From the IMG/VR virus record IMGVR_UViG_3300025071_000005, positions 1 to 34,157 of that record: a DNA stretch of 34,157 nt. The stretch is one strand, 5' to 3'. Positions 10,517 through 20,456 of the stretch are shown piece after piece. The notes below the pieces were generated by a model. The model worked only from the letters and a program-made list of their open reading frames with translations, did not search any database and had not been told where the DNA came from. Position 1 is the stretch's first letter; each line of letters opens with the position of its first letter. The DNA comes from a virus. A program made the translations under genes and the position numbers.

Positions 10517-10544
10517 ATTATAACATGTTTTTATTTATTGTCGA
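10517..10544 (-). promoter_or_regulatory. sigma70 promoter with extended -10
   Basis: On the minus strand TCGACA (10544-10539), a 16-bp spacer and TATAAT (10522-10517) preceded by TGT. The perfect extended -10 suggests considerable strength. It drives the 91-aa HTH gene. Confidence 0.75.
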
Positions 10545-10767
10545 GTCTGTCTTGATGCTGAGCATACACAAGCTCTGACCACATAACGTATGCCTGTTCC
10601 CAGTTGTCGGGGTAGAGATACTTGCAGAATGGCAACAGCTGTACGATTGTAGGTAATTGCTTACCTTGTTGCCAACGACAGATTGTATCTCTGTGGCATC
10701 CAACACTTCGTGCCAACTCAGATTTATTGACAGTAGATAGGGTTGCTTTCAATTCAGTTGCGAACAT
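10531..10767 (-). CDS. Cro/C1-type HTH protein, 78 aa
   Basis: The ATG at 10767 has AGGAG upstream and overlaps the end of the C5 methyltransferase by 14 bp. Residues about 14-40 (NKSELARSVGCHRDTICRWQQGKQLP) are a clear helix-turn-helix of the Cro/C1 kind, followed by two helices. It is short like Cro, with no peptidase or dimerisation domain as in CI. It is probably a transcriptional regulator of the early promoters; the operators near 14642 and 10500 are candidate targets. Confidence 0.78.
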   Translation of the reverse strand: MFATELKATLSTVNKSELARSVGCHRDTICRWQQGKQLPTIVQLLPFCKYLYPDNWEQAYVMWSELVYAQHQDRLDNK

Positions 10768-11665
10768 AACGTTCTCCTAGTATGTTTGATTTGATTATTT
10801 GTTGTCCAACCCATTCAGCGCACTGTGGGACGACTGCGTTTCCGAGTGATTTAAGTCGGTCCACCCGATTGGGAATCCCATCATTTCTTCCACGAACTGG
10901 GGATTGAGTCGGAAATCCTTGCCAGTAGTTTTGTTGAGTCCGTTCATCTTGGCTGCTTCCACATTCAGACTGCCGTTCCTGTCCCACTGACTGGCTCCAG
11001 ATGGGTTGTTTTTGGATTCGTTGACTGTTGGTGTTGGCAGTAGACCTTGCTTCTGAAGTTGCTCGTATATCACTACAGTCAAGTCCGGTCCTCGTGTACC
11101 TGTCACTGGGTGTTCTGCTGGTGCTCTTGGTCGCAGACACTTGTGTGTTTGTGCTGCTAATGGGGTAGGCAACGCAGAACCACCTACGTCTAAGGTGGGG
11201 TGCTCCACATTGTTTAGCAGATATAATCGTCCATTCGCAGTCATACCCGATTTGGGCAAGACTTCCAACAACGTCGGGTCCGCCCACTCGAATGATGTTT
11301 GGGACGTTTTCCAAGACCAAGATTGGCACTTCGTGTCCATTGGACTGAAACTCGCTAAGTATTCTGTGGACTTGCCACCAAAGACCAGATTTTTCTTCAT
11401 CAGATAACCCCTGTTGCTTGCCAGCAATAGAGATTGACTGGCATGGAAAGCCAGCACAAATTACATCTACTGGTTCCAAGTTGTGTGCGCCTACATCGAG
11501 CACGTTGTTGTATCGTTTTGCGTTAGACCAATGTCGCTCCAAAACAGAACGACAGAATGGCTCTTTCTCTACTTGCCAGGCTGTTTGGAGCTGACCTTTG
11601 AAGGCGCGTTCTAGCCCCAACTCTAGCCCACCGATGCCTGAGAACAAACTACCCATCTTTAGCAT
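10754..11665 (-). CDS. DNA cytosine-C5 methyltransferase, about 303 aa
   Basis: Family motifs are in order, counted from the ATG at 11665: FSGIGG (8-13, SAM binding), GFPCQ (72-76, catalytic Cys75), ENV (119-121), HLRRR (157-161), and GNAVVP (275-280). The target-recognition region (about 170-260) is Ser/Thr/Gln-rich. The start at 11665 is preferred over the longer frame because a GGGGG stretch precedes it and it overlaps the upstream gene by only 17 bp; 11668 and 11656 are alternatives. No restriction endonuclease is adjacent, so this is an orphan enzyme, probably protecting phage DNA from host restriction. A long second frame runs through its 3' two thirds (10795-11457). Confidence 0.93.
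   Translation of the reverse strand: MLKMGSLFSGIGGLELGLERAFKGQLQTAWQVEKEPFCRSVLERHWSNAKRYNNVLDVGAHNLEPVDVICAGFPCQSISIAGKQQGLSDEEKSGLWWQVHRILSEFQSNGHEVPILVLENVPNIIRVGGPDVVGSLAQIGYDCEWTIISAKQCGAPHLRRRWFCVAYPISSTNTQVSATKSTSRTPSDRYTRTGLDCSDIRATSEARSTANTNSQRIQKQPIWSQSVGQERQSECGSSQDERTQQNYWQGFPTQSPVRGRNDGIPNRVDRLKSLGNAVVPQCAEWVGQQIIKSNILGERYVRN
10795..11457 (-). CDS. Candidate overprinted ORF inside the C5 methyltransferase, 220 aa
   Basis: This is a 663-bp open frame on the same strand, shifted relative to the methyltransferase. Its product does not look random: it contains LPTPTVNESKNNPSG and ends with LNPQFVEEMMGFPIGWTDLN. I recall LNPxFVExMMGFPxGWT patterns from many phage proteins, often annotated beside or inside cytosine methyltransferase genes. 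The methyltransferase frame clearly holds its own conserved motifs over the same bases, so both frames may be under selection. No good ribosome binding site was identified, so translation is unproven. It may be a remnant of older gene architecture. Confidence 0.35.
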   Translation of the reverse strand: MLAFHASQSLLLASNRGYLMKKNLVFGGKSTEYLASFSPMDTKCQSWSWKTSQTSFEWADPTLLEVLPKSGMTANGRLYLLNNVEHPTLDVGGSALPTPLAAQTHKCLRPRAPAEHPVTGTRGPDLTVVIYEQLQKQGLLPTPTVNESKNNPSGASQWDRNGSLNVEAAKMNGLNKTTGKDFRLNPQFVEEMMGFPIGWTDLNHSETQSSHSALNGLDNK

Positions 11666-11945
11666 CATCGCCCCCAAACTCGTTGTCCCAGTCAGTCTTA
11701 ATCTTGGATGCCAACGCACCCAGATGCTTACACATGGACCCACGGTACTGGTGATCGGGACATGTACATGTGTATCCATTGTCATCAATCACACAGGTCC
11801 ATCGTGGTGTATGCCCAACCATGCTACCATCCGATAGCATGTTGGTCTTGAGTTCTTTCTGAACATTGTCTACTCGGTCATCATCGAAGAAGCCCTTGAG
11901 TTTCCAATGCTCTGTGATGTGCTCAATGGTTTCACTGATCTTCAT
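11649..11945 (-). CDS. SWIM-type zinc-finger protein, 98 aa
   Basis: The ATG at 11945 has GGGGA upstream and overlaps the previous gene by 14 bp; a longer frame to 11987 lies inside that gene. The SWIM signature CxCx9CxH is complete: C60-T-C62, then C72-K-H74. SWIM domains bind zinc and mediate DNA or protein contacts. The rest is charged, with an acidic C-terminal tail. It lies between replication genes and the C5 methyltransferase, so a role in DNA handling is likely. The exact function is unknown. Confidence 0.8.
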   Translation of the reverse strand: MKISETIEHITEHWKLKGFFDDDRVDNVQKELKTNMLSDGSMVGHTPRWTCVIDDNGYTCTCPDHQYRGSMCKHLGALASKIKTDWDNEFGGDDAKDG

Positions 11946-13172: not shown

Positions 13173-13891
13173 TACTCACCTCCAACTAGGTTGCCATTCT
13201 CATCGAATGTAGGAATCGTAGAACGTCGTCTGACGCTCTTTGGTAGTGCTGGCAGTGTCTTGACCTGTGTAAGAGCATAGTTGGCATCCAGCTTCTTACT
13301 AGACACGATTACTGCCGGATTAACCATACCATTGTCACGTAGGTATTTGGCTCGATAGTGATCTGCCTTGAATACCCAGTCCATTACTGCTCTTGCCTTC
13401 TCAATCGCTCCAGTTCTAACCACACGAGCTAGAGTGCCTAGGTCGTATGCTGATACCAAACCATACTCCCCGCCATTGTCCTCCAGTAGGTCTATCCAAT
13501 AACCGAATAGAGTCAGTAGTGGTTGATTGGTTTTGCAGTAGTCGAACAGCTGTGGCTTCACGGATGTGTCTACTGGTATTGGCATATTATTCAGAAGGAG
13601 AACTTTACCTTCCCCAACAGCACCAACACTAATATTTTTAGTATTACTATTAGTGTTGGTGTTGGTTAAAGGAATTAAATTTTCGGCTACTATATTAGTA
13701 CTAATACTATTAGTAATATTAGTGCAACATCTGTGCCAAAGTTTGAACACGTCCTCCACACTCTCTAGAACGTCGAAGTTACCGTTGGATGTTGTCACCT
13801 TGCATCCCTTCAGATTGGGTGTCACTTGTACTATAGAGTTTGCACTACATATAGTGAGTTCTCTATTGGTACTGGTTAATCTGAGAATCAT
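13172..13891 (-). CDS. Replication-initiator-like (lambda O-type) protein, 239 aa
   Basis: The first 52 residues (MILRLTSTNRELTICSANSI, later VLESVEDVFKLW) resemble the small FlbD-like fold. The middle (about 55-95) is an Asn/Thr/Ser-rich low-complexity linker encoded by an iteron-like AT-rich cluster. The C-terminal half (about 110-215) is helical, with a KYLRDNGMVNPAV segment like the YLRP-x-TLF region of phage replication proteins. Origin repeats inside the gene and a loader-like gene downstream are the lambda O/P arrangement. The start overlaps the HTH stop (ATGA). It would bind its own gene and start replication. The function is inferred. Confidence 0.5.
   Translation of the reverse strand: MILRLTSTNRELTICSANSIVQVTPNLKGCKVTTSNGNFDVLESVEDVFKLWHRCCTNITNSISTNIVAENLIPLTNTNTNSNTKNISVGAVGEGKVLLLNNMPIPVDTSVKPQLFDYCKTNQPLLTLFGYWIDLLEDNGGEYGLVSAYDLGTLARVVRTGAIEKARAVMDWVFKADHYRAKYLRDNGMVNPAVIVSSKKLDANYALTQVKTLPALPKSVRRRSTIPTFDENGNLVGGE
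13621..13725. other. Candidate replication origin (iteron cluster inside the initiator gene)
   Basis: A 14-bp perfect inverted repeat (CACCAACACTAATA at 13621-13634, TATTAGTGTTGGTG at 13648-13661) is followed by an A/T-rich stretch. Next come a perfect palindrome TATTAGTACTAATA (13693-13706) and two more ATTAGT copies (13709 and 13718). ATTAGT/ACTAAT occurs six times in about 100 bp, and TACTATTAGT is a direct repeat (13645 and 13705). The bases encode a low-complexity linker, so they are free to serve as DNA sites. This parallels lambda ori within gene O. Confidence 0.65.
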
Positions 13892-14127
13892 TGCTCACCT
13901 GCCTGTTCCATGCTTATTGTGTTGAGCATAATGTTGTATCCTTGATTGGAAGCGGTTGGATATAGAGTATCAGCCAGTCGCATAACGTATTGTCGTTGGG
14001 GTACTTGAATACCGTCTACCCATGCTCTTAGAGTGTAGATGGATACACCACACAGTTCTGCAACCTCATGTGGTGTATGCTTTGAATCTTTAATGGCTCT
14101 AGTCAACATTTCTGTAAATAGAATCAT
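13888..14127 (-). CDS. Cro-like HTH protein, 79 aa
   Basis: Residues about 7-48 (LTRAIKDSKHTPHEVAELCG, then VSIYTLRAWVDGIQVPQRQY) form a Cro/C1-type helix-turn-helix. At 79 residues it has no room for a CI-type C-terminal domain. It overlaps the upstream gene (ATGA at 14124-14127) and the initiator (ATGA at 13888-13891). It probably regulates the early promoter at 14623-14651 or the divergent one at 14872-14900, which both carry palindromes. Confidence 0.78.
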   Translation of the reverse strand: MILFTEMLTRAIKDSKHTPHEVAELCGVSIYTLRAWVDGIQVPQRQYVMRLADTLYPTASNQGYNIMLNTISMEQAGEQ

Positions 14128-15861: not shown

Positions 15862-16055
15862 ATGGAGTTACCATCTATTTTGGTTACCATCTTGAACACT
15901 TCACACACATTAAAATAGAATTGGATCCAACTTACGATTCAATTGAGAATTGTATATTGGATCACTTGATTGAGGAGTTTTGGATGCAAAATCAATACTT
16001 CCTGATCCTGATTGACGGGGTTCCTTACGAGTGGGAGGTGATAAGTGTTAAATGA
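15858..16055 (+). CDS. Unknown early protein, 65 aa
   Basis: The start overlaps the upstream stop (ATGA) after GGGGGTGAGG. It is a small acidic and aromatic soluble protein. Its last codons carry the GGGAGG site for the following tiny membrane gene. Function not recognised. Confidence 0.65.
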   Translation: MNGVTIYFGYHLEHFTHIKIELDPTYDSIENCILDHLIEEFWMQNQYFLILIDGVPYEWEVISVK

Positions 16056-16146
16056 TTGGATTGATTACGCAATATTCTTCTTGATTCCCTTTGCGGTATA
16101 TTCTGTTTTCTTGATACTCGGTGTCATTGCTAGGTGGATGTTATGA
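16045..16146 (+). CDS. Tiny membrane protein, 33 aa (GTG start)
   Basis: A GTG at 16045 has GGGAGG six bases upstream (16033-16038), inside the previous gene. The product is almost entirely one transmembrane helix (YAIFFLIPFAVYSVFLILGV) with an Asp/Trp N-terminus and an Arg/Trp C-terminal edge. Phage-encoded single-helix peptides of this size are often inhibitors of host membrane functions or superinfection-exclusion factors. That role is only a possibility. Confidence 0.55.
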   Translation: MLNDWIDYAIFFLIPFAVYSVFLILGVIARWML

Positions 16147-16199
16147 AGGATGAAACAATTATATTTTACATATTGTTATTTTTATTGATAGGTTGCTGA
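16143..16199 (+). CDS. Candidate 18-aa lipobox-like peptide
   Basis: An ATG overlaps the stop of the 33-aa gene (ATGA). The peptide is MKDETIIFYILLFLLIGC, a short hydrophobic helix that ends in LIGC, like a lipoprotein signal cut off at its Cys. GGTGGA lies upstream. It is so short that it may be chance, but the overlap with its neighbour and the terminator right after it fit a real last cistron. Confidence 0.3.
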   Translation: MKDETIIFYILLFLLIGC

Positions 16200-16223
16200 A
16201 ACAATCAAAACAATAAAACTCTG

Positions 16224-16257
16224 AAACTCTCATTACTTGCATAGTGAGAGTTTTTTT
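16224..16257 (+). terminator. Rho-independent terminator of the plus early operon
   Basis: AAACTCTCA (16224-16232) pairs with TGAGAGTTT (16245-16253), with a run of seven T from 16251. It ends the 14960-16199 operon. Confidence 0.88.
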
Positions 16258-16263
16258 GTGTAT

Positions 16264-16288
16264 ATTGTTTCTGTAACTATGAAACAAT
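16264..16288. promoter_or_regulatory. Operator-like inverted repeat before the 97-aa gene
   Basis: ATTGTTTC (16264-16271) and GAAACAAT (16281-16288) are perfect inverted arms separated by nine bases, 33 bp upstream of the 16321 start. It uses the array octamer, so the same protein may regulate this gene. A convincing promoter pair could not be fixed here. Confidence 0.55.
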
Positions 16289-16320
16289 TGATACTGTAAA
16301 ATCTCAAAGGATAGCACGAA

Positions 16321-16614
16321 ATGAGTACACACGACCGTAACACACCGAAACGAAACAATACCTACTTAATCAAACCACACAATCAAATAGCAAAGTGTAT
16401 AAAGACTGAATCTATAACGGGGTTACTATGGGCGTTTATACAACTTGCACAACATGAAATTAAACACACAGGAAAAACCGAAACATTCACAGGTTCTGAA
16501 CTCAATAAGTTTGTTACTCTGTTGCATACTAGGGAGGTAGAATCGAAACTCTCACAACCTGAAACAATGGACGTTTCGGCTGTTTCGGAATGGTTAGAGA
16601 AAACGAAACAATGA
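16321..16614 (+). CDS. Unknown 97-aa protein inside the GAAAC array; terminase-small-subunit candidate
   Basis: An AAAGGA site precedes the ATG. The N-terminus is basic (RNTPKRNNT), followed by helices and an acidic C-terminal segment (DVSAVSEWLEKTKQ). It is the last plus gene before the large terminase, though 815 bp away, and lies in a dense array of repeated sites. In many phages the small terminase subunit is a short helical DNA-binding protein coded here, with its packaging sites in or near its gene. That makes it a candidate, but I see no sequence signature. A plasmid-partition-like or regulatory DNA-binding role is equally possible. Confidence 0.55.
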   Translation: MSTHDRNTPKRNNTYLIKPHNQIAKCIKTESITGLLWAFIQLAQHEIKHTGKTETFTGSELNKFVTLLHTREVESKLSQPETMDVSAVSEWLEKTKQ

Positions 16615-16620
16615 CACACA

Positions 16621-16725
16621 ATGTGTTTCACCAAACACCCCGTAACACACTAAGTTTCGACACAATGAAACTGGACATGTTTCACCCAGCACCCCGAAAC
16701 TCATTATGTTTCGACACAATGAAAC
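16621..16725. repeat. Imperfect tandem repeat, 54-bp period
   Basis: Two 51-bp units (16621-16671 and 16675-16725) match at 43 of 51 positions. Both contain TTTCACC and CACCCCG, and both end in the identical TTTCGACACAATGAAAC. They directly follow the 97-aa gene in non-coding DNA. Confidence 0.92.
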
Positions 16726-16871
16726 AATGAAACTCTCAATCGTTGGGACGTTTTGGTTTGGGGTCCGTTGGCTGCTAACTATAAACAACTTAGATAAAAG
16801 AATAGTATCGCCCTATTGCTTTGATTCTATGATATCGCCGGTGTAGATTGGATGGGGTCGAATACGCCCGT

Positions 16872-16896
16872 ACACATACCTCGTATGTGTTACAGT
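16872..16896 (+). promoter_or_regulatory. Palindrome plus extended -10, copy A
   Basis: ACACATAC-CTC-GTATGTGT (16872-16890) is directly followed by TACAGT (16891-16896), preceded by TGT as in an extended -10. The upstream -35 is poor. It shares its layout with copy B 317 bp downstream. Confidence 0.5.
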
Positions 16897-16976
16897 ATGT
16901 AGACCTCTCCAACTACACAAGATAGCAGGTCGAACGTCATAGGTCTTTTATCGCGCCTTACTTAACAACATGGAAT

Positions 16977-17007
16977 AACCTATAGAGGAATCAATCCCCT
17001 ATAGGTT
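16977..17007. other. Stem-loop beside the 37-aa gene
   Basis: AACCTATAG (16977-16985) pairs with CTATAGGTT (16999-17007), and two more G-C pairs follow inside after one mismatch. It lies just past the stop of the minus-strand 37-aa gene, but no T-run follows on either strand. It may protect or process the transcript. Confidence 0.6.
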
Positions 17008-17013
17008 GAAGGT

Positions 17014-17127
17014 TTACGGTAAACGAGACATTGCTATAATCAATGCAATTAGTGTAGGTACTGTTAAGAGTGTAGGGATTATTACAATGCATAATAGTTC
17101 AATGAAATCATTGTTTGAGTTTTTCAT
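17014..17127 (-). CDS. Tiny membrane protein, 37 aa, with leader cassette
   Basis: On the minus strand, an ATG at 17127 is preceded by AGGA and a leader cassette copy (17141-17151). The product is a polar N-terminus (MKNSNNDF) and one transmembrane helix (IELLCIVIIPTLLTVPTLIA and a little more) ending SRLP. The leader shared with the early genes supports expression despite the size. It stands alone, opposite in strand to both neighbours. The role is unknown; small inner-membrane inhibitors of host or competing phages are one possibility. Confidence 0.6.
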   Translation of the reverse strand: MKNSNNDFIELLCIVIIPTLLTVPTLIALIIAMSRLP

Positions 17128-17140
17128 GTTGTATCCTGTG

Positions 17141-17151
17141 ATTGGTAGGTT
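17141..17151 (-). promoter_or_regulatory. Leader cassette copy of the 37-aa gene
   Basis: AACCTACCAAT on the minus strand, then CAC and AGGA before the ATG at 17127. It is the most diverged of the six leaders. Confidence 0.65.
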
Positions 17152-17188
17152 AATCCCTTTTGAATGGTAGGGAGTTGTATACGGCTGA

Positions 17189-17212
17189 ACACAAACCCTT
17201 TTGTGTTATAGT
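17189..17212 (+). promoter_or_regulatory. Palindrome plus extended -10, copy B (candidate late promoter)
   Basis: ACACAAA-CCCT-TTTGTGT (17189-17206) is directly followed by TATAGT (17207-17212), preceded by TGT. CTGAAC at 17185-17190 could serve as a weak -35. It is the nearest good promoter upstream of the large terminase, with about 210 bases of leader. Confidence 0.6.
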
Positions 17213-17379
17213 ATACAGAACTCACGCACAGGAAACAGGGGTAACCGGCTATCATTGTACCACTGTATAAGGCATCAATAACAGAATACTATTGCATGCT
17301 ATGTCGATTCGTTGTATGCTTTCTATAGGCTGCTATACAATACACCTTGTAGACGTTGTACCTAGTTCTTTAGTAGGGA

Positions 17380-17419
17380 GTCATGGGAGGGAGGGACATA
17401 CCAGCCCATGACACTTTTT
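17380..17419 (+). terminator. Terminator-like hairpin in the TerL leader
   Basis: GTCATGGG (17380-17387) pairs with CCCATGAC (17405-17412), then AC and five T, ending at the AAGGAG of the large terminase. It may attenuate late transcription or gate ribosome access. Confidence 0.65.
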
Positions 17420-17429
17420 AAGGAGTAGG

Positions 17430-18947
17430 ATGAACGATATACAAAAGCAACTATATACAGTATTCCAGGATCCATTTGAGTTTATCAGTAGACTTAACAT
17501 AGTATCCAAAGAGGGTCGTGTAGTACCTCTGAGACTCAATGCAGAACAGATAGACATCATCAACGCATTAGAAGAAGGTAGAGATACATTGGTATTGAAG
17601 CCTAGACAGATAGGTAGTTCTACAGTTGTCTGTGCTTACATGTTTTGGAAAGCTTATACATCAACAACACCACTAACATTAATAATACTATCTTATAAGA
17701 TTGCGAGTTCTAAGCACTTACTACATATCCATAAGAGATTCTATCAATACCTACCAGAGACATTGAAAAGACCATTAGATACTGACAATACAACAGAACT
17801 ATCTTTTAAGGGTGGTGGACGTATCATAGCCGCAGCAGCAACACAAGCTGGTGGTTTACGTAGTCAGACTTGTAGTATGCTACATATCTCAGAGTATGCC
17901 TTTGCAGAGAATCCTGAGGAACTTAAGGCTACTGCTATCAGTGCATTGAATGATGGACAGTTGGTAATAGAGAGTACTGCTAACTATTACAATGATGCAC
18001 TGTGGAAGGAAGTACATAAACATCAGATAGGAGAAGCAGATTGGAACTATCTATTCTTCCCTTGGTTTAGTCATAAAGAGTATTGTATGGATGACATACC
18101 GATAAGTCTTACAGATGAAGAACTGAAGTTACAGGAGCAGTATCATCTAACATTAGGACAACTATGTTGGAGAAGGGAGAAGATAAGTAAACTAGGATGG
18201 GAGAAGTTTGTACGTGAGTATCCGATGACATTGGATGAAGCATATCGTATCAGTGGTAATACATACTTTACGTATGATGACTTTGAGCATGTAGATGTAA
18301 TAACTGTAAGTCCTGTTGAGTGGGTAACCTTTGAAGCCCCGAATCCAGATGATACGTATGCGATAGGTGTAGATGTTAGTGGTGGTGTAGGTAGGGATTA
18401 TGCTGTAATATTCTGTATAAGTAGACTGACGTTACAAACAGTATGTATCTATAGAAGCAATACAGTAAGTCCGATACAGCTGGCAGATTACATATATGAT
18501 ATGAGTGTGACGTACAACAATGCACTGGTATTGGTAGAGAGTAACAACTATGGCCTGGCAACTATCCAGGAGCTATTGTATCAAGGGTTTCATAGGTTCT
18601 GGAAGGATCCACTTACTGGTAAAGACTTTCTTACAACGAGTAGAAGTAAGCCATTGTTATTTGAGAACTTGAAGAAGGGTATACAGACAGGAAGTATACG
18701 AATGATAGACAATGTAACGATGACAGAGTTAAGGTCTATTACAGTAGATGAAAAGGGCATCATAAGGTTTGGTGAAGACGTGGGTAGTCACTGTGACAGT
18801 GCAATGGCGATGACATTGGCTTATTGGTGTTTGAATAGTGTTAAGATAAAGCAGAGTGCATATTTACCGGATTGGATCATTAGTCAGAAAGCAGAGAAGC
18901 AATTGAGGACCAGTGGTGTTAGTCCAAGTTTGCATAGGAGGTATTGA
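17430..18947 (+). CDS. terL: Terminase large subunit, 505 aa
   Basis: The ATPase that pumps DNA into the prohead and the nuclease that cuts it. A Walker-A-like KPRQIGSST lies at 57-65 (Ser where Lys is usual), and a Walker-B-like MLHISE at 150-155 has the catalytic Glu155. The C-terminal nuclease has acidic residues in GVDVSGG (Asp315), LVESNNYG (Glu370) and HCDSAMA (Asp456). The length is normal for the family. An AAGGAG site lies four bases before the ATG. The stop overlaps the next start (TGATG). It opens the late head operon, with a hairpin in its leader. Confidence 0.93.
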   Translation: MNDIQKQLYTVFQDPFEFISRLNIVSKEGRVVPLRLNAEQIDIINALEEGRDTLVLKPRQIGSSTVVCAYMFWKAYTSTTPLTLIILSYKIASSKHLLHIHKRFYQYLPETLKRPLDTDNTTELSFKGGGRIIAAAATQAGGLRSQTCSMLHISEYAFAENPEELKATAISALNDGQLVIESTANYYNDALWKEVHKHQIGEADWNYLFFPWFSHKEYCMDDIPISLTDEELKLQEQYHLTLGQLCWRREKISKLGWEKFVREYPMTLDEAYRISGNTYFTYDDFEHVDVITVSPVEWVTFEAPNPDDTYAIGVDVSGGVGRDYAVIFCISRLTLQTVCIYRSNTVSPIQLADYIYDMSVTYNNALVLVESNNYGLATIQELLYQGFHRFWKDPLTGKDFLTTSRSKPLLFENLKKGIQTGSIRMIDNVTMTELRSITVDEKGIIRFGEDVGSHCDSAMAMTLAYWCLNSVKIKQSAYLPDWIISQKAEKQLRTSGVSPSLHRRY

Positions 18948-18950
18948 TGA
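18928..18950. repeat. 23-bp direct repeat, left of the methyltransferase
   Basis: Exact copy of 19567-19589, beginning GTTTGCATAGG and ending at the ATGA of the next start codon. It contains the ribosome binding site GGAGG. The two copies lie 639 bp apart and bracket the methyltransferase gene. Confidence 0.95.
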
Positions 18951-19576
18951 TTCAGTTGTTTAATGGTGATTGTATGGAAGCGTTTGCTGGTATGGAGGAC
19001 AACCAGTATGACATAGCAATTGTTGATCCACCGTTTGGTATTGGAAACTTTATTCAAACAACAGGCAAGCATCACAATGGTGTACAACGAAAAGCCAAAA
19101 AAGTTATATGGAATAACAGTACACCTACAGAGTTATACTTTGCGGAGCTTCGTCGGGTAAGTAAGCATCAGATTATATTTGGTGCGAATTACTACAACTG
19201 TTTTGATAAAAAGCATGGTGCGATTGTTTGGGTAAAGAATCAACCGATGCCCAACTTTAGTAAAGCCGTGATAGCCAGTTGTACGTTTCACAAGAAGATT
19301 GAGTTGTATCAGCAGACATGGACAAACTTTGTAGCTGATGGTCGATGTACAAAGCATCCATGTGAAATGCCAATAGACTTGTATATGTGGTTATTAGAAA
19401 GTTATGCTAAAAAAGGAAACAAGATACTTGATACACATTTAGGGTCTGGGTCTATTGCAGTTGCTTGTCACAACCTGGGATATAGTTTAGATGGGTATGA
19501 GATTAATGCAGAGTACTTTGATGCTGCACAGAAAAGATTACATGAACATCAACGTCAACTTCAATTGTTTGCATAG
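18947..19576 (+). CDS. DNA amino-methyltransferase (beta-class, N6-adenine or N4-cytosine), 209 aa
   Basis: DPPF (27-30, catalytic) comes before the SAM-binding DTHLGSGS (162-169), the order of beta-class enzymes that methylate adenine N6 or cytosine N4. The ATG at 18947 follows GGAGG and overlaps the TerL stop; a TTG three bases upstream is not needed. It is short, with a small recognition region (about 35-130). No nuclease partner is present. It is bracketed by an exact 23-bp repeat, so it looks like an inserted cassette. It probably protects phage DNA. Adenine is the more likely target but is not proven. Confidence 0.9.
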   Translation: MIQLFNGDCMEAFAGMEDNQYDIAIVDPPFGIGNFIQTTGKHHNGVQRKAKKVIWNNSTPTELYFAELRRVSKHQIIFGANYYNCFDKKHGAIVWVKNQPMPNFSKAVIASCTFHKKIELYQQTWTNFVADGRCTKHPCEMPIDLYMWLLESYAKKGNKILDTHLGSGSIAVACHNLGYSLDGYEINAEYFDAAQKRLHEHQRQLQLFA

Positions 19577-19589: not shown

Positions 19590-19834
19590 GTAAAGATTTA
19601 TCAGTGTGTGGTGTCTGTGGGTGTGACCCATGTGATTGTCATGGTGTAGTAGAGCTGGTAGATTTAAAATACAAAGTCAAGGACAAGTATTTTAGAATCT
19701 GTGTACCCAAAAGGTTTGTAGACATTTATCGAAGCATGTATAGGTACATAGAGGTCATGGAAGCAGATGGAACTATGGTAGTGTATAATAGTGTTGTTGT
19801 TAAGAACAAGGATACTTCAAACAAGAGTATTTAA
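19586..19834 (+). CDS. Cys-rich N-terminus protein, 82 aa
   Basis: The start at 19586 follows GGAGG. The N-terminus has a tight Cys cluster (CGVCGCDPCDCHG, with Cys at 8, 11, 13, 16 and 18) that probably binds zinc; the rest is a small beta-like domain with basic and Tyr residues. Its 3' end runs 35 bp into the convergent Mom-like gene. In phage Mu a small zinc protein (Com) activates mom translation, but this sequence does not obviously resemble Com, so the parallel is only positional. Confidence 0.68.
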   Translation: MSKDLSVCGVCGCDPCDCHGVVELVDLKYKVKDKYFRICVPKRFVDIYRSMYRYIEVMEADGTMVVYNSVVVKNKDTSNKSI

Positions 19835-20456
19835 GAATCTTTCTCAGCTGTTTCTTTTGTTTCTTAGTGCCAAGTAATTTAATATATCTGTGTTTACAAA
19901 CATTTGATTTTTCTAGAGTCCATCCTTTTTCAAGGGCTTGTTTAACTGTAATGTTTTTACCTTGCTGTCTAGGATGTCGAATACAATTGTTTTTGTCTTT
20001 GTAGTAGGTTGTATATTTTCGAGTAGTACCACAATACAACCAAGACATTGCTTGATACACTCCTCCATGATGACCATGTTTGGTGTCAGCAAAAGAAATA
20101 ATTGCTTTGTATTTTGTTTTACCTTGTTGTATTCGATATGCCTGTAAAGCTTCAATACACTTAGAAACAATCTGGCTAGCAAGAGTTTTGCATGTTGGAT
20201 GCAAAACCAGTCTGCCAAGTTCAATAATATATTGTTTGTATTCAGCTCCGTATACGTTTTCTCGTATTTTTTCAGAACATGGTATTTGAAACGCAACAAC
20301 ACCAACCAGTATATTGTTTTCAAAAGCACCAAAACAAGAAGCATTGTTGCTGCATGACTTTAAGTAATGATACTTAGACAACAAAGTTCGTGCTTCTTTA
20401 ATGGTAATCTTTTGAATGTGTAAGACGTTTGTGGGAAATAATGACAATTGAATCAT
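19800..20456 (-). CDS. Mom-like DNA adenine modification protein (GNAT-fold), 218 aa
   Basis: SFADTKHGHHGGVYQA (121-136) followed by SWLYCG, with an upstream YHYLKS (29-34) and LGRLVLHP (80-87), is the pattern I recognise in the Mom family. Phage Mu Mom converts adenine to a methylcarbamoyl form and blocks many restriction enzymes. The C-terminus is a basic tail that could hold DNA. It is the only long minus-strand gene in the late region and its 3' end overlaps the Cys-rich gene, which suggests independent acquisition and control. Its upstream region shows no GATC, so Mu-style Dam control is not evident. Sure of family, less of the exact product. Confidence 0.82.
   Translation of the reverse strand: MIQLSLFPTNVLHIQKITIKEARTLLSKYHYLKSCSNNASCFGAFENNILVGVVAFQIPCSEKIRENVYGAEYKQYIIELGRLVLHPTCKTLASQIVSKCIEALQAYRIQQGKTKYKAIISFADTKHGHHGGVYQAMSWLYCGTTRKYTTYYKDKNNCIRHPRQQGKNITVKQALEKGWTLEKSNVCKHRYIKLLGTKKQKKQLRKILKYSCLKYPCS

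Follow-up and report, generated by a model that had tools for sequence, protein, structure and literature searches.

An array of short repeats built on the word GAAAC lies within and around a gene for a 97-aa protein, just ahead of the gene for the terminase large subunit (TerL), in the DNA analysed here (an IMG/VR virus record of 34,157 bases, referred to as the window). The array is real and specific, and it is kept in place across a group of uncultured phages. What could such an array do? A packaging (pac-like) array best unites its place by TerL, the many short sites, their indifference to gene borders and the changing word. The full reading takes the array as a pac-like region of many sites on which the 97-aa protein would act as a TerS-like factor; it is the best supported of the readings, though slightly less likely than not. 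The features concerned are as follows.

16152..16738, + strand: GAAAC array with 21 YGAAAC(A) cores, 14 forward and 7 reverse, including direct pairs 8 bp apart and inverted pairs separated by 7-8 bp
16223..16254, + strand: intrinsic terminator of the upstream genes, its 5' arm being the GAAACTCTCA copy at 16223
16321..16614, + strand: gene for the 97-aa protein, inside the array, of a family of small helical proteins before TerL
16604..16726, + strand: imperfect tandem repeat with a 54-bp unit in 2.3 copies, on which the final third of the array lies
17430..18947, + strand: TerL (PHROG 2 family, E 9e-32)

The earlier note on this DNA had described a dense GAAAC array at 16152-16738 that disregards gene boundaries, and the description holds. 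By word count, 14 GAAAC and 7 GTTTC cores fall inside these limits, and 92 GAAAC are found across the remaining ~33.5 kb of the window; when the whole window is binned, the densest 590-bp bin has 20 cores, whereas bins outside the array region have at most 5. The 21 cores in 587 bp compare with a maximum of 9 in 300 order-3 Markov genomes. Gene borders form no barrier, as eight cores lie within the 97-aa gene and the remainder on both flanks. Seven exact copies of GAAACAAT had also been reported, and these do start on the forward strand at 16152, 16198, 16281, 16352, 16561, 16605 and 16721; a reverse copy at 16264 brings the number in the array region to eight, and the rest of the window has two copies only (6515 and 20164). 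The octamer count that the note had envisaged against control genomes gave these eight copies versus a simulated maximum of three (the same 300 order-3 Markov genomes). Similarly, GAAACTCTCA is present three times as claimed (16223, 16545 and 16729) and nowhere else in the window. The 14 to 7 strand ratio of the cores is not significant in the window alone (p 0.19). Copies within 16604-16726 are not independent, because this segment is a 54-bp imperfect tandem repeat; it contains GAAAC-N7-GTTTC inverted pairs.

Is the array a peculiarity of one genome? Homologous loci were gathered from viral contigs, 58 for TerL and 25 for the 97-aa protein (44 by profile). A homologue of the 97-aa protein precedes TerL in 43 of 51 upstream regions, at a distance of 72 to ~1,580 bp, and the remaining eight regions are short contigs, cut off by contig ends. 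Most relatives have an array in and downstream of the 97-aa gene, but its word varies. GAAAC-rich arrays are found in the window and in three relatives (L009, L019 and L027); most other relatives carry a rigid 16-bp TGC site, TGnTGCAAnnnCAGCA; four have mixed arrays with both words (L012, L014, L033 and L062); L042, L044 and L037 show a few copies of AAGTGACA in place of the other words, and L053 and L065 have no clear array. A single GAAAC direct pair, YGAAACnnYGAAAC, occurs in 6 of 20 other records and lies inside the array in the loci read. Homologues of the 97-aa protein that are ~65-75% identical sit in arrays of different words, and the orientation of the array flips between relatives. 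In the TerL tree, GAAAC-rich arrays form two separate groups and TGC arrays are widespread, deep branches included. A single origin of the GAAAC state is all that the well-supported branches require; two origins appear likelier than one, short of proof. In the simplest history, a GAAAC element that was minor in ancestral TGC arrays would have been amplified.

No annotated phage was found with the 97-aa gene or with similar DNA, and a search of 84,980 bacterial and archaeal genomes with the profile of the 97-aa family brought up no copy in a host or prophage. Satellites that carry the array or its end box without the phage were also considered and rejected, as pattern scans of 2.9 million viral contigs returned only this group; the lone outside match (L165) was judged a chance one. 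A separate TGCTG-N6-CAGCA series in L138/L139 (G009), at 17789-18224, has a spacing of 30-210 bp and belongs to a seemingly repetitive coding region unrelated to the array. Could the sites act as a decoy that titrates a host DNA-binding protein? Their high number would suit such a role, and lineage-specific words could track differences between hosts, but the fixed position at TerL would be left unexplained, and the proposal is very improbable.

The words are organized with some precision. Logos over ten GAAAC-bearing relatives give the array word as (C/T)GAAAC(A); these ten have 23 direct GAAAC pairs 8 bp apart as well as inverted pairs of the form GAAAC-N7/8-GTTTC, and forward copies outnumber reverse copies 86 to 26. 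Of the TGCTG to CAGCA pairs within 26 bp, 36 out of 36 are exactly 11 bp apart, which is one helical turn. There is also an imprint on codons. The window's 97-aa gene has 8 cores, compared with a mean of 3.5 upon synonymous codon permutation (p about 5e-5) and with 2.3 for redrawn codons, and the permutation test for GAAAC is significant in L009, L019, L027 and L010 as well. The excess over codon permutation thus shows a DNA word imposed on protein-coding sequence. TGC sites also exceed codon expectation, with 4 vs 0.29 in L048, 4 vs 0.50 in L050 and 3 vs 0.31 in L054, and likewise in the coding sequence of L055. A folded RNA as the functional form of the array was ruled out: the array's last 135 bp have a fold z of -0.88, and TGC arrays flip orientation, which would break pairing on the + strand. 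With folding set aside, the array more likely acts as duplex DNA.

A different origin would be slippage or tandem duplication, with the array a by-product that has no binding function and is tolerated by coding tails. The 54-bp tandem repeat that makes up the last third of the array is in keeping with this, as are the differences in words between relatives and the protein tails, in many members of the 97-aa family, that are spelled by the array itself (e.g. ETPKQ). Slippage does not readily account for rigid spacing, for sites that recur without being simple tandem copies, for two different words imposed on codons, or for a place and an end box conserved across the group, and an origin without function is quite unlikely. 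The density, fixed spacing, codon imposition and same-place arrays in relatives instead support the earlier suggestion of many sites for one protein.

Which protein might this be? The 97-aa gene, proposed earlier as the binder, is the sole small gene directly upstream of TerL in every relative that covers that place. Only one other small gene recurs beside TerL, cluster 29 (83 aa, after TerL); since its product is zinc-ribbon-like, with C-x2-C motifs, and is missing in several genomes, the 97-aa protein is, by position and elimination, the best candidate for the small terminase (TerS). Its predicted model has four helices (pLDDT 70.7), and the N-terminus of the family is basic and disordered in two models (pLDDT about 70). 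No helix-turn-helix (HTH) is recognizable in these two models of modest confidence. Comparison of 31 family members with PHROGs and Pfam, and of the family profile with PDB sequences, gave nothing relevant, and no sequence similarity to TerS families was detected in these three collections. Structure searches with the two models yielded nothing informative beyond common helical arrangements, a result compatible with a TerS fold. As there is neither a TerS match nor a recognizable HTH, the 97-aa protein is a plausible binder of the array whose binding can only be inferred. An AT-hook-like start, GRPKGS or GRPKGT, is present in the homologues of L029, L034, L037, L040, L042, L053, L055 and L065, and the window protein does not have it.

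If the pac-like reading is right, the 97-aa protein, or a complex containing it, would be the small terminase, encoded next to TerL. It would bind the sites, assembling as a multimer on many short sequences in and around its own gene, and would recruit TerL; the first cut would be made nearby, in the array region, and the ~34-kb genome would then be packaged by a headful mode. The density, the disregard for gene borders and the fast turnover of words would all follow if the sites were many and weak instead of single and strong. The constant TerL neighbour, the codon-imposed word and the same-place arrays in relatives favour this reading. Three functions had been offered in the earlier note, i.e. 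a pac site, a partition-like site and an operator field; the pac site stands as the best of the three because the 97-aa gene is the sole small gene before a TerL that is probably of headful type (the TerL family includes T4-type enzymes) and because known pac repeats lie in or around terS.

The genome ends can be viewed in the same light. The window ends in a repeat of 127 bases, and a relative (G018) has an end repeat of identical length. Because the two are exactly equal in length, the repeat is probably the assembly overlap of a circular graph and not a biological repeat, and such an overlap of circular assemblies is as expected for permuted or concatemeric DNA. Near-complete contigs are broken at different places. 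Of 34 upstream contig ends, 26 fall within 2 kb before TerL, where they spread over ~1.7 kb with no single point, and downstream ends are spread evenly (loci L009-L066). The upstream clustering need not mark a cut and may be due to sequence that is rich in repeats or variable. Several findings weigh against the pac-like reading: the 97-aa family has no TerS match, HTH or informative fold match, the contig ends are dispersed over about 1.7 kb, the orientation of the array flips, which is odd for a directional start, and in L029 and L034 the end box and the RNA described below are upstream of the gene. If one protein reads both words of the mixed arrays, its specificity is hard to understand.

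Three DNA modification genes are present within the 34 kb: a C5-cytosine methyltransferase (10754-11788, - strand), a second DNA methyltransferase directly after TerL (18944-19576, + strand) and a Mom-like DNA modification protein (19800-20456, - strand). A methylation-controlled pac similar to that of P1 was considered and set aside, as the window's methyltransferase beside TerL clusters with no other protein in the genome comparison and therefore cannot account for the group's arrays.

Downstream, the array gives way to further elements.

16740..16750, + strand: array end box, TCGTTGGGACG in the window, consensus ATCGTTAGGCGGG in relatives
16828..16935, + strand: structured RNA copy 1, a long hairpin with covarying stems (100 bits; fold z -3.8)
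17146..17254, + strand: structured RNA copy 2 (47 bits; fold z -2.6)

The last array site leads directly into ATCGTTAGGCGGG in both dialects of the array; the junction in the window is ATCGTTGGGACG, and a junction scan of 2.9 million viral contigs found this phage group only. Beyond the box, mostly by 82-96 bp, is an RNA element of ~108 nt. Eleven sequences served to build a covariance model, which detects one RNA in nearly every module-bearing relative searched and two in the window. In 36 distinct sequences, whose alignment was fitted to the structure, 22 of 31 pairs have changed on both sides and 93% of cells are paired; none of 500 shuffles reached the observed covariation, and slid controls drop to 30-61%. 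In the unfitted alignment of 11 sequences the paired share is 94% and 12 pairs are two-sided, both values exceeding those of every shuffle. G-U pairs exceed A-C mismatches by 37 to 12, as expected for an RNA read from the + strand, and the fold z values are -4.9 in L019 and -9.8 in L054. Rfam gave no gathering-level match in the window and none up to E 1 in five relatives; the interval 16050-17450 showed sub-threshold chance matches only. The ~108-nt RNA matches no Rfam model and is new and undescribed. A dyad with TGnTATAGT downstream had been read as promoter plus operator, and this was replaced by the structured RNA on account of the four nested covarying stems and the excess of G-U over A-C.

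Some observations on neighbouring sequence may be added. RNA copy 2 has stems that more closely resemble those found in L012-type relatives, as might be seen after recombination between two lineages. Between the two copies is a minus-strand open reading frame for a hydrophobic 37-aa peptide, MKNSNNDFIELLCIVIIPTLLTVPTLIALIIAMSRLP (17014-17127), and beyond its end an inverted repeat (16977-17007); L012-type relatives have a similar inverted repeat and a minus-strand start signal between box and RNA. In three relatives without the RNA (L053, L065 and L037), the gap before TerL is short and contains runs such as GACCTTTGGGTACCCC or GGTTCCCCCGTAGGGGGAA, possibly a replacement element.

Going by its position, the most likely role for the RNA is that of a cis-acting leader for the packaging/late operon. 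This bears on the main rival to the pac-like reading, an operator or enhancer field, where a phage regulator on many sites would control the packaging/structural operon that starts at the structured RNA. This rival must be taken seriously, since the box at which the array stops opens onto a structured RNA heading the late genes. Array, end box and RNA come in a fixed order, and in L029 and L034 array sites precede a box and RNA that are both upstream of the 97-aa gene, which indicates that part of the module is tied to transcription and not to terS. The TGC site resembles a dimer operator, and small HTH-type proteins are encoded: the product of 13888-14127 has weak HTH profile matches, and that of 10531-10767 clusters with it by sequence. 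However, ~20 sites in 590 bp, some inside a gene and some upstream of a terminator, far exceed what a phage operator needs, no such cluster occurs elsewhere in the window, and no consensus promoter was found between box and RNA. An operator field is possible, though doubtful. A wider proposal would make array, box and RNA one control module for packaging and late expression, where an HTH-less terminase partner reads an array whose word has switched from TGC to GAAAC, probably twice, and the RNA couples late transcription to packaging; as a whole it is rather unlikely.

Little is understood of how a small terminase chooses its own DNA. Because the array keeps its place while the word switches between close relatives, the group provides natural swaps that bear on whether word, spacing or place alone is what counts, and the structured RNA, with strong covariation and no Rfam match, is a clear target for experiments.

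How does the array compare with known systems? In plasmid iteron and centromere arrays, a small protein from an adjacent gene binds direct repeats of fixed spacing, and the evenly spaced direct repeats found here in and beside a small gene resemble them. The array might then serve replication or partition, with a phage initiator or a ParB/ParR-like protein binding to it. But no Par or Rep gene is recognized here (no ParA-, ParM- or Rep-type match among the proteins scanned, several genes being unannotated), there is no GC-skew switch at the array, the location is tied to TerL, and the search of the 84,980 bacterial and archaeal genomes revealed no relative, hence no sign of a maintained prophage or plasmid state. 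The partition-like site of the earlier note, with no ParA/ParB-type gene among the proteins scanned, drew little support, and a replication or partition role is distinctly improbable.

The pac-like reading brings other comparisons. The R-sites of lambda cosB are several terminase-binding repeats next to the terminase genes, and the window likewise has several repeats, possibly bound by a terminase, close to its TerL gene. In contrast to lambda, no cos overhang or fixed end was found, TerL is of the T4-type family, and the circularized assemblies suggest permuted or concatemeric DNA. The pac of P1 has several hexanucleotide sites within about 160 bp; the similarity would be in multi-copy short words as a packaging signal near a packaging gene. 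The word of the window differs from that of P1, and there is no evidence of a role for methylation, although two DNA methyltransferases and a Mom-like protein are encoded.

In the pac regions of SPP1 and SF6, repeats occur in sets that extend across the promoter and into the beginning of the small terminase gene, and the repeats differ between the two phages although their small terminases are exchangeable (PMC4737164). Single DNA-binding domains of SF6 hardly prefer pac repeats (PMC4737164), and in phiH1 the pac end is inside terS, near the stop codon (PMC6210493). The window array is far denser than those of SPP1 and SF6 (about 20 sites in 590 bp), with one dominant word, and it runs through the whole gene and beyond; its candidate TerS is without an HTH, and a structured RNA lies between this gene and terL. 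What the array shares with SPP1 and SF6 is a repeat sequence that varies between relatives, with place and partner kept.
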